In this document: piece by piece, positions 39,709 to 53,677 of the stretch | Position numbering within the stretch: the stretch's first letter is position 1 | Layout: each line of letters opens with the position of its first letter | Assembly: GCF_030268045.1 (NCBI RefSeq) | Contig: NZ_BSDC01000004.1 | Span: 1 to 64,000, forward strand | Source: Geothrix edaphica | Lineage (GTDB): Bacteria > Acidobacteriota > Holophagae > Holophagales > Holophagaceae | Direction of reading: 5' to 3' | Length of the DNA: 64,000 nt | Translations under genes and position numbers: made by a program | The notes under the pieces: generated by a model | What the model was told of the DNA's origin: nothing | Database searches by the model: none | Seen by the model: only the letters and a program-made list of their open reading frames with translations

Positions 39709-40434
39709 CTACCCCCGCTCCGCCGCCCCACCAGGCCCGGCGCCCGGGTCCGGTTCCACGGGGGTGATCCAGCGGTAGCCCTCCCCGCCCACGGTGGTGA
39801 TCCAGGGCGAGCCCAGCTCCTCGCCAAGCTTCCGCCGCAGGTTCGCGATGTGGACGTCCACGGTGCGGGCGCTGGGGCGGGCATCCGGCTCCCAGGCCAG
39901 CTGCAGCAGCTCCTTGCGGCTGTGGGTGCGGCCGGCGTGGGAGATGAGGATCTCCAGCAGCCGGAACTCCCGGGGCGTCAGCTCCAGGGTCTTCCCGTCG
40001 CGCCGGGCCTCCAGGCGGGGGAGGTCGAACTGGAACGGGCCGGAGCGCAGCCGGGCCGGCCGGTCCACGGGGCGGGTCCGGCGCAGGATGGCCTTCACGC
40101 GGGCCATGAGCTCGAGCACGGAGAAGGGTTTCACCAGGTAGTCGTCCGCCCCCAGGCTCAGGCCCTTCACCCGGTCGGTCTCCTCGCCCCGGGCCGTGAG
40201 GAGGAGCACGGGAACCTCGTCCTTGCGCTCCCGGAGCGTGCGGAGGACCTCGAAACCATCCAGCTGGGGCAGCATCAGATCCAGCACGATGAGGTCTGCC
40301 CGCCGGGCCGTGTGCGCGGAGAGGGCGGGCACACCATCTCCCACCGCCTCGACGGAATAGCCTTCGAAGCCCAGGTTGTTGACGAGGAGCTGGCAGAGGG
40401 AGGGCTCGTCCTCTACCACAAGGATGTGGATCAC
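39709..40434 (-). CDS. OmpR/PhoB-type response regulator
   Basis: 241 aa. Receiver: ILVVEDEPSLCQLL, phospho-Asp in LIVLDLMLPQLDG, Lys in DDYLVKPFSVLEL. C-terminal winged helix: LELTPREFRLLEILISHAGR and ARTVDVHIANLRRKLGEELG. Transcription factor for the kinase encoded upstream (40712-42280). Between the two lies a 277-bp gap holding a copy of the kinase 3' end. Confidence 0.93.
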   Translation of the reverse strand: MIHILVVEDEPSLCQLLVNNLGFEGYSVEAVGDGVPALSAHTARRADLIVLDLMLPQLDGFEVLRTLRERKDEVPVLLLTARGEETDRVKGLSLGADDYLVKPFSVLELMARVKAILRRTRPVDRPARLRSGPFQFDLPRLEARRDGKTLELTPREFRLLEILISHAGRTHSRKELLQLAWEPDARPSARTVDVHIANLRRKLGEELGSPWITTVGGEGYRWITPVEPDPGAGPGGAAERG

Positions 40435-40518
40435 GGCGGCTCACTCAAGGAACGGATCCTCCCAAGATGCACGTATTGACTTGGAAGGGCAAGCGGGATT
40501 GGCTGCAATTTCCAAGGT

Positions 40519-40590
40519 TCAGGCGGCCGGGATCTCCAGGAGGGCCGAGAAACCCTCACCGGGGCCCGAGGCGAAGGTGAGGCCCCAGCC
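40519..40590 (-). pseudogene. 72-bp remnant copy of the histidine kinase 3' end
   Basis: Matches 40712-40783 at 70 of 72 positions and, in the same frame, encodes the identical last 23 residues plus stop (GWGLTFASGPGEGFSALLEI...). Both differences are silent. No reading frame leads into it, so it is not expressed as a protein. The 121 bp between the copies are not repeated. Likely the trace of a recombination or insertion at the gene end. Confidence 0.85.
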
Positions 40591-40638
40591 ACGGGACCCC
40601 CTCCGCGATCGCAAGCCGGAGGCGCCGCGGGAGCGGGA

Positions 40639-40661
40639 GGACGCGCCTTGATGGCGCGTCC
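40639..40661 (-). terminator. Hairpin between the kinase 3' end and its remnant copy
   Basis: 9-bp perfect stem ggacgcgcc (40639-40647) and ggcgcgtcc (40653-40661), 5-nt loop, without a U-run on either side. It may attenuate transcription from the kinase into the regulator gene. Confidence 0.4.
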
Positions 40662-40711
40662 GATCGGGGGGTGGTGGGAAGCGTGGCCTCACCGGGGTCT
40701 GGATGAGCCCC

Positions 40712-42280
40712 TCAGGCGGCCGGGATCTCCAGGAGGGCCGAGAAACCCTCGCCGGGGCCGGAGGCGAAGGTGAGGCCCCAGCCTTCCTGGTCGGCCACCT
40801 GGACGAGGAGGCTCAGGCCCAGTCCCTGGCCTTCACGGAGGAAGCCCTCCTTGCCCGATTCCCGGATCCTCTGGAAGGGTTTGCCGAGGACCTTGAGCTG
40901 GTGGGGATCGAGCCCGCCCTCGTCGCTGACCTGGATGCAGAACCGGCGACGGGCCCGCCAGGTCTCCAGGGTGACGCGGCCCTTGCCGTGGGCCAGGGCG
41001 TTCTCCACCAGGGTGAGCACGGCCGCCCGCAGGGAGGGCAGCGGGGCGTGGCCGGCCTCCGGGGCGAGCTTCAAATCGAGGGGGCGGCCCTCGGCATCGA
41101 AGCCCGGGCGGAGATCCTCCGCCACCTCCTGGAACCAGGCCGGGTTGGCCTGGCCCCGGGGGCCCGAGGCGCCGCTGCCGCGGATCACCCGCAGGCCGGT
41201 CTCGATGATGGTGGTGAGGTGGTCCACCTCTTCGCTGATCTTCAGCAGCTCCTCGTCGGCCCGGTCCGGATCGAGGCGGCCCAGGCGCAGGGAATCGCAG
41301 CGGAACTTGAGGATGGCCAGGGGGGTCTTGAGGCTGTGGGTCATGGAGGCCATGCGGTCCGCGTCCAGCTCGGCCTTGCGGCGGGCCCGGTGGCGCAGCC
41401 AGAGGCCGAGCAGCACGGCCAAGCCCACGGAGAGGGCCGCGCCGGAGATCAGCCGCCTCTGATACTTCAGGGACTTCCGGAAGGTGACCTGCTCTTCGTC
41501 GAAGGCGACTCCCGCCAGGTACCACCCATCCCCGAAGGCGTTGGTCTTGGTGGAGGAGCCCAGGGGCAGGGTCACCAGCCGCTGGGGGTCCGCCTGGAGG
41601 TTGGGCTGGGCGCCCCAGGGCTGGGGCTTCAGGTCCCGCCGGTTGGCGTCCGATTCCCGGAGCAGGCCCATGCGCAGGGCCCGGCGGGGGGCCAGGGCGA
41701 TCCCCAGCTCCCGCTCCACCTCGGGCGCGCCCGGCCGCCAGCGCTTGATCACCAGCCAGCGGTCGGAGAGGAGGACCACGGTGGCGACCTTCCCGAAATC
41801 CGGGTCCTGCTCCCGCGGCGGGTTCCACTCGAAGCGCTGGGCGGTCTCGGCGTGGGTCATCCAGCCCAGGTACTGCTGGGCCAGGGCGGCGTCCTTGGGA
41901 ACCACCAGGCGGTCCCCCTCGCGCACCCAGAGGCGGCGGCCCTCGAAGCGGTCCAGCAGGGCCACCACCAGGGGCTGGTCCTCGAGGAGGCGGCGCACAT
42001 CCTCCTCGTCGCCCCGGCGGACGCTGTGGAGGATCGGGAGGCTCTTCCAGTGCCGCTCGACGGCCTCGTGGTCCACCCAGTGGGCATCCATGTAGGCCTG
42101 CTGGGCGGTGCTGACCTGGTCATTCAGGTAGTAGCGGGGCGCGGCCATGAGCAGGGCCGTGACCACCAGGCCGGCCAGGACCAGCAGGGCGATGCCGCTC
42201 TGCTGCTGGAGGCGCTGCCAGCGCGAGAGGCCCAGGCTGGGGTGGATGAGGCGGAACCGGGAGGCGCGGTGGCGGTACAT
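40712..42280 (-). CDS. Sensor histidine kinase
   Basis: 522 aa. Membrane helix about 27-47, an extracytoplasmic sensor of about 230 residues with no recognised fold, a second helix about 280-298 (ISGAALSVGLAVLLGLWL), HisKA with phospho-His in ASMTHSLKTPLAILKF, and an ATPase domain (LTLVENALAHGKG, VSDEGGLD, GQGLGLSLLVQVAD). The ATP-lid and G-box residues are present, so it is probably active. Cognate regulator: the OmpR-type gene downstream, although separated from it by the duplicated 3' end. Confidence 0.9.
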   Translation of the reverse strand: MYRHRASRFRLIHPSLGLSRWQRLQQQSGIALLVLAGLVVTALLMAAPRYYLNDQVSTAQQAYMDAHWVDHEAVERHWKSLPILHSVRRGDEEDVRRLLEDQPLVVALLDRFEGRRLWVREGDRLVVPKDAALAQQYLGWMTHAETAQRFEWNPPREQDPDFGKVATVVLLSDRWLVIKRWRPGAPEVERELGIALAPRRALRMGLLRESDANRRDLKPQPWGAQPNLQADPQRLVTLPLGSSTKTNAFGDGWYLAGVAFDEEQVTFRKSLKYQRRLISGAALSVGLAVLLGLWLRHRARRKAELDADRMASMTHSLKTPLAILKFRCDSLRLGRLDPDRADEELLKISEEVDHLTTIIETGLRVIRGSGASGPRGQANPAWFQEVAEDLRPGFDAEGRPLDLKLAPEAGHAPLPSLRAAVLTLVENALAHGKGRVTLETWRARRRFCIQVSDEGGLDPHQLKVLGKPFQRIRESGKEGFLREGQGLGLSLLVQVADQEGWGLTFASGPGEGFSALLEIPAA

Positions 42281-52855: not shown

Positions 52856-53677
52856 ATGAGCATCAAGCAGCTCAAGCCCACGACCCCCGGTCAGCGCGGC
52901 ATGTCCAAGTTCGGCTTCGAGGAAATCACGACGGATACGCCTGAGCGTTCCCTGATTGCCAAGAAGAACCGCACTGGAGGCCGCTCCAACACCGGCCGGA
53001 TCACCACCCGCCACATCGGCGGTGGCCACAAGCGCCAGTACCGCATCATCGACTTCAAGCGCAACAAGCTGGAAGTGCCGGCCAAGGTCGCGACCATCGA
53101 GTACGATCCCAACCGCACCGCCCGCATCGCCCTGCTGGTCTACGCCGACGGCGAGAAGCGCTACATCCTGGCCCCCGACGGCCTGGAAGTGGGCCGCACC
53201 GTGGTGGCCGGCAAGAACGCCGACATCCTGGTGGGCAACGCGCTCCCCCTGCGGAACATCCCGGTCGGCAACACCGTCCACAACATCGAGATGAAGCCCG
53301 GCAAGGGCGGCCAGATCGCCCGCGCCGCCGGCACCTTCGCCCAGCTCGTGGCCAAGGAAGACGACTACGCCCAGCTCCGCATGCCCTCCGGCGAGATCCG
53401 CAAGATCCACCTCGAGTGCTACGCGACCATCGGCACCGTCGGCAACCTGCAGCACGAGAACATCCAGATCGGCAAGGCCGGCCGCACCCGCTGGAAGGGC
53501 ATCCGCCCGACCGTCCGCGGCGTGGTCATGAACCCCGTCGACCACCCGCACGGTGGTGGCGAGGGACGCACCTCCGGTGGCCGTCACCCCGTGACGCCCT
53601 GGGGTCAGCCGACCCGCGGCTACAAGACCCGTGGCAACCGTCGCACGGACAAGTTCATCGTCAAGCGGATCAACTAG
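52856..53677 (+). CDS. rplB: Large ribosomal subunit protein uL2
   Basis: 273 aa. Peptidyl-transferase-centre protein; the conserved C-terminal [20 protein letters not shown] holds the key His. N-terminal [20 protein letters not shown] 74-bp gap precedes it, longer than most in this cluster; SD aagaggaca. Confidence 0.98.

Follow-up and report, generated by a model that had tools for sequence, protein, structure and literature searches.

A 121-bp insert at a histidine kinase gene end in Geothrix belongs to a family of tiny structured non-coding DNA elements

The window, a 64,000-nt stretch of the Geothrix edaphica genome (contig NZ_BSDC01000004.1, positions 1 to 64,000), contains the gene of a sensor histidine kinase and that of its response regulator (Table 1). 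The 3′ end of the kinase gene is duplicated. The two 72-nt copies are spaced by 193 nt and agree at 70 of 72 positions (97%). Both mismatches lie at third codon positions and are synonymous, and both copies close with the same stop, TCA on the plus strand corresponding to TGA of the minus-strand kinase, exactly as an earlier sequence-only reading had reported. One copy completes the kinase gene. The other is a displaced orphan whose flank TTGGAAATTGCAGCC continues as in the alleles of two relatives (G024 and G010) that are empty at this site.

The 121 bp that separate the copies begin with a sharp end, which abuts the orphan, and finish with a variable distal end towards the kinase. They hold the 9-bp hairpin that the same reading had described, but its statement that they are unrelated to the repeat does not wholly stand: GGCCTCACC, near the distal end, is the exact reverse complement of GGTGAGGCC, present in the two copies at 40576-40584 and 40769-40777 and adjoining the insertion junction.

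Table 1. Features of the kinase locus and element copies at other genes
Feature	Position	Strand	Basis or description
Response regulator gene, 241 aa, kinase partner	39709-40434	-	PF00072 and PF00486 (Trans_reg_C)
Native kinase-regulator spacer	40435-40518	-	Matches the spacer of empty alleles
Displaced (orphan) kinase-end copy, still attached to native downstream flank	40519-40590	-	Repeat; flank comparison
Insert, one copy of a dispersed structured element	40591-40711	+	Model R1 matches 40591-40685, 105 bits
Three-way-junction fold	40597-40670	+	RNAalifold and covariation
Closing stem of fold	40597-40601/40666-40670	+	RNAalifold
Hairpin 1 stem	40602-40606/40633-40637	+	RNAalifold
Hairpin 2, 9 bp, loop TTGAT	40639-40647/40653-40661	+	RNAalifold
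GGCCTCACC, candidate target-pairing segment	40685-40693	+	Direct sequence reading; class-wide pairing tests
Gene-side copy of the 72-bp kinase end (functional last 23 codons and stop), distal side of element	40712-40783	-	Repeat comparison
Sensor histidine kinase gene, 522 aa, 3′ end duplicated	40712-42280	-	ORF; HATPase_c PF02518; weak HisKA match
L002, own genome	C3:55002		About 99 bp of insert between two identical 68-bp copies of a thioesterase gene start
L003, own genome	C1:587625		131 bp of insert; a MacB-like permease gene 3′ end is repeated on both sides (56 bp, 89%)
L043, own genome	G000:C4:137336-137424		3′ end of a DUF6677 gene; 121-bp repeat
L044, own genome	G000:C4:161349-161439		3′ end of a superoxide dismutase gene; 87-bp repeat
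L165, genome G143 (another genus, single contig)	L165:1500-1680		tRNA-Thr 3′ end; 34-bp tRNA-end copy displaced beside element

Close orthologues of the kinase are found in 17 relatives. Homologous inserts occupy the same kinase site in G001, G009, G020, G046, and G047, and the junction is identical in six genomes. In G001, G009, and G020, the insert is followed by a copy of that genome's own kinase end. In many other orthologues, the spacer is plain and about 70-140 bp long, or measures about 1 kb and holds a cytochrome gene; these empty alleles contain a single kinase end. In several Geothrix species (loci L007, L008, L009, L015, and L017), a two-haem cytochrome c gene (SoxA/TsdA-like plus Cytochrom_C) lies between the kinase and regulator genes; the window's genome has no cytochrome c gene at this position.

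The insert is patchily distributed among species. The kinase site is filled in 7 of 21 taxa and empty in 14, and one genome (G048) carries the element without an orphan. On a kinase tree of the 21 taxa, built without the duplicated tail, parsimony requires seven changes, the maximum for seven filled tips, and each is an isolated change. The site therefore switches state frequently, through gain, exchange, or exact loss, the last being expected of an element flanked by direct repeats. An arrangement that is old, invariant in all relatives, and without linked copies, as had also been considered, is contradicted by the 14 empty species and by copies that are more alike within than between genomes. 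Orphan and gene copy are 96-97% identical within a genome, versus 87-92% between an orphan and the gene copies of other genomes. Empty alleles of the kinase, thioesterase, and mnmG sites share their flank or leader with the orphan side of filled alleles, which identifies the gene-side junction as new.

A search of the genome and its relatives for the insert and the repeat, as had been suggested, reveals dispersed copies in addition to sites with one kinase end and tandem arrays. Within the genome, the query 40470-40800 finds two other loci (L002 and L003) that match the insert alone and not the kinase end. That the insert recurs there, with the ends of other genes duplicated around it, argues for a mobile element. 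A covariance model built from six inserts, R1, detects five strong and two weak copies in the same genome. All 47 Geothrix genomes searched, including G. fermentans, G. paludis, and G. terrae, contain copies, 374 in total when per-genome counts are summed. At the level of the family, 61 of 77 genomes and 8 of 11 genera have matches. Outside the family, a single sampled genome of the phylum matches (G164), and its 410-contig assembly may be mixed. The five own-genome copies have no relevant match in Rfam at E values up to 1, the element has no match in plasmid records, phage records, or a pattern scan of viral contigs, and no earlier description of it was found in the open-access literature. 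The 121-bp insert belongs to a family of very small structured non-coding DNA elements that had not been labelled before. A dense cluster of several related copies is present in another genus of the family (L163, G201:C16, about 52900-53270).

The element measures about 85-135 bp, the inserts 85-145 bp, and the copies share a core of about 85 nt composed of two hairpins and a closing stem. Among 107 distinct copies, 98% of pair cells hold standard pairs, and 21 of the 23 pairs vary on both sides. The covariation score is 0.51, whereas shuffles give 0.14 and sliding the alignment gives no more than 0.064; as the alignment was fitted to the structure, the slid control is the most telling. The strong covariation and the low slid control indicate that the fold in one strand is under selection or required for mobility.

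The recurrence of the element bears on two other origins of the kinase locus. The repeat is a kinase end, which is the one point in favor of a scar left by a deleted paralogous kinase and kept similar by gene conversion. The insert contains no kinase sequence and is a dispersed element present in the same arrangement at unrelated genes, and the probability of such a scar is vanishingly small. An assembly artefact is also very unlikely, with the arrangement recurring in many independent assemblies, including the single-contig genomes G044, G046, G055, and G143.

The element copies almost always sit at gene termini between two copies of the gene end, and the gene is kept whole. For 111 copies, the flank outside model position 1 was aligned to the sequence past the other end. 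In 87 copies, a direct repeat terminates at the sharp end, no more than four bases from model position 1. The same score is reached by 34 of 2806 mismatched flank pairs, a number that may include shared orthologous sites, and by 2 of 281 control sites (about 1%), which excludes chance for the abutting repeat. The copies fall into 20 target classes with median duplication lengths of 30-141 bp. The non-sharp end is variable and lies 0-75 bp past the model. Wherever frames can be assigned, which leaves out two loci, the intact gene is always distal and the orphan always on the sharp side, for gene starts and gene ends alike.

The targets are diverse. The kinase, MacB permease, and superoxide dismutase genes are hit at the stop end, and the MnmG and thioesterase genes at the start. 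Further targets are MiaB-like, QueE-like radical-SAM, MutL-like ATPase, M24 peptidase, and TP_methylase genes, with sub-family names reflecting a reading of conserved motifs. The mutL-like and queE-like genes have identical insertion points in Geothrix and in genomes outside it. The filled and empty alleles, the displaced native end, and the presence of the family at many genes and one tRNA bear out the earlier suggestion that a short segment was inserted at the gene end and restored the gene. In most cases, the end of the visible repeat coincides with the start or stop codon or lies at most a dozen bases away. A codon boundary as the cutting specificity is weakened as a candidate by G001 and G020, which show longer, non-coding homology. 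At two loci (L110:418-860 and L105:601-793), an element lies inside the orphan segment of another, with about 5 bases apparently replaced and no long duplication of its own. Judging by the first element of L110 and by L105, a long duplication may not be obligatory.

Tandem arrays of the form repeat-element-repeat-element-repeat, with one repeat more than elements, occur at about ten loci. In the arrays L070 and L094, the middle repeat differs from both outer repeats. In G009, a remnant of a second element lies outside the second kinase-end copy. The arrays and this remnant are what would be left if a pre-existing element beside a gene had been caught in a tandem duplication of gene end and element and the outer element had then been lost. 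This origin is very improbable: most loci have one repeat more than elements and the native flank outside, and the outer element would have had to disappear separately in some 20 gene classes, which is unlikely.

We consider that the insert is probably a mobile element that is small, non-coding, and non-autonomous and whose single-strand fold is conserved, and that its arrival at the kinase 3′ end produced or carried the copy of the last 72 bp. The element would insert at a break inside the gene. A second break, in the opposite strand about 60-100 bp away and just outside the gene, would allow fill-in to duplicate the segment between the two breaks. Insertions would persist only where a complete gene remains, which would account for the location of the element at gene ends. 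The direct repeats would then let homologous recombination remove, re-form, or multiply the filled allele, the last giving tandem arrays, and exchange it between strains and species. Recombination through the repeats would keep the copies alike, make the site patchy among species, and trim the visible homology to its coding part. Speaking against this reading are the elements of L110 and L105 without their own long duplication, a cassette-like leader at the thioesterase gene, and a synonymous bias between copies.

This bias is seen over all assigned frames. Of 134 differences between copies, 91 are synonymous and 92 are at third positions (raw counts); a few frames are misassigned (L057, L062, and L078), and the synonymous figure is thus conservative. 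If the orphan simply decayed neutrally, more replacements would be expected, and the differences would not be mostly synonymous. Exchange with functional gene ends by homologous recombination would explain the bias, with a possible contribution from the translation of start-type orphans.

The bias also suits a different course, in which the mobile unit is a cassette, the element together with its own gene-end copy, that enters by recombination in the shared gene end, restores the gene, and displaces the native end, much as with phages and integrative elements at tRNA genes or mitochondrial mORF elements at atp6. This course is possible, though we think it rather unlikely. The repeat boundaries, mostly at stop or start codons or a tRNA 3′ end, look as if the gene alone were common to donor and recipient. 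Each gene has its own element lineage, common to several species and genera, and the distinct middle repeats of L070 and L094 agree with this course too. The orphan leader is native and the gene-side leader is foreign; at the thioesterase gene, the latter resembles the native leader of another lineage (G053, G001, and G020), and the likeness would fit a ready-made cassette acquired through recombination and not a fresh insertion in each species. However, a cassette leaves unexplained how one element obtained the ends of about 20 unrelated genes, and a primary insertion with duplication would still be needed. The inserts encode no recombinase, and the mnmG-site elements of different species are 85% alike against 87% for the gene, so a recent spread is not evident there.

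The distal arm of the insert can pair in part with the gene sequence that spans the insertion point. Over the 20 classes, the mean pairing score is 9.2, versus 7.0 (sd 0.32) in shuffles, none of which (0 of 3000) equals it. In 8 of the classes, no distant window within 450 bp of gene scores equally, and the gene target, which is uninterrupted, shows a larger excess than the interrupted orphan side. This complementarity hints at guided targeting. An element RNA might pair through its variable arm across a nick, with its fixed 3′ end copied from the nicked gene strand in a LINE/SINE-like manner, and such target-primed insertion would duplicate a long stretch of the target and leave one junction sharp and the other variable. 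The fixed and variable junctions and the conserved fold agree with it, as does the intact gene-side target, which would permit tandem re-insertion. Against it, about half of the classes show little or no clear pairing, the segment beyond the junction (Z) is not significant alone, and the RVT_1 reverse transcriptase (PF00078) is absent from the window's genome and from 32 of 47 Geothrix genomes. The pairing may represent a guide, and it may equally result from selection on folding or be left over from an inverted repeat in the target. Guided, target-primed insertion is improbable. A wider reading is a new kind of bacterial mobile element, a structured RNA (or single-stranded DNA) whose variable arm pairs with conserved gene sequence near the gene end and directs insertion with a 60-100 bp duplication, the gene staying intact and the target reusable; we regard it as unlikely.

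Two enzymes were considered as partners. The RAYT (Y1, PF01797) transposase is not found in the window's genome and is present in 5 of 47 Geothrix genomes. A reverse transcriptase is likewise not found in the window's genome; RVT_1 occurs in 15 of the 47. Neither tracks copy number, and G017, with 22 copies, has neither. Inserts contain no recombinase or other gene; a recombinase may act in trans. Y1 (IS200-like) transposases occur in five copies in G055:C1 and seven in G019:C1, unrelated to the distribution of the element.

Phages, ICEs, and genomic islands integrate at tRNA genes and gene 3′ ends through tyrosine-recombinase att sites, so that the gene is restored and its native end displaced. 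Like these, the Geothrix element carries an identity segment that restores the host gene end, in one case that of a tRNA-Thr. Unlike them, it has no integrase, no cargo, and no single att core, and its targets differ among about 20 classes and include starts as well as stops. Fungal mitochondrial mORF elements (at atp6, cox2, and nad3 of Allomyces and Glomus) are about 1 kb long and encode homing endonucleases; the insert brings a replacement C-terminal segment, the native segment remains downstream, and copies spread between species (PMC3630166). The Geothrix element similarly adjoins a substitute gene end with the native end displaced. In contrast to mORF elements, it is non-coding, structured, and 85-145 bp long, too short for a homing endonuclease frame, none of which is found in the inserts; it resides in bacterial chromosomes and also occupies gene starts and a tRNA gene. 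The element thus works like gene-end-restoring integrations and mORF elements, and by the features tested is a member of neither.

REP sequences of the GTAG type are simple palindromes of 20-40 bp with a GTAG tag at the end and are mobilised by RAYT, and REPtrons can be lost in some species (PMC3733652). The Geothrix element resembles REPs and BIMEs in being short, dispersed, palindromic, and non-autonomous, and many copies have GTAG after the closing stem. It differs in its greater length, three-way junction, and long gene-end duplications, in GTGG replacing GTAG in the kinase-site copies, and in the absence of a Y1 transposase from 42 of 47 host genomes. Like MITEs and other small bacterial mobile repeats (PMC2229807, PMC10969869), it is small, non-autonomous, and dispersed. 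Unlike MITEs, its ends are not mutual inverted repeats, its duplications measure 30-141 bp and not a few base pairs, and it is specific for gene ends. The element therefore resembles REPs and MITEs in size and dispersal and fails their defining tests. With non-LTR retroelements (LINE/SINE-like), the element shares a target duplication of which one end is fixed and the other varies, whereas a reverse transcriptase is not consistently present in the hosts; relic copies could outlive the enzyme. Rickettsia palindromic elements are palindromic repeats at or in coding sequences, inserted in frame inside ORFs. In the Geothrix case, by contrast, the gene is kept whole through its duplicated end.

Small dispersed repeats usually lie between genes and have duplications of a few bases. 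Here, a bacterial element spread across a family lies almost always exactly at gene termini, a tRNA gene included, inside long duplications of the gene's own end. It provides a natural, very small-scale example of gene-end capture and a test bed for how such long duplications form. For annotation, it is a warning that displaced ends resemble gene fragments.

The element also gives rise to alternative gene starts whose translation overlaps that of the main gene, as at mnmG and the miaB-like gene. Translation running through orphan and element was rejected as a general function, since the periods are not uniform modulo 3. Wherever both copies of a filled mnmG allele are readable (L217-L229), their starts lie 155 nt apart, despite a lack of conservation in the 31 bases preceding the gene start. 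In the window's genome, the mnmG orphan frame stops in a TGA that overlaps the ATG of the gene. Overlaps of orphan stop and gene start (ATGA or GTGA) are found at mnmG, at the miaB-like gene, and at L079/L089 and L115/L116.
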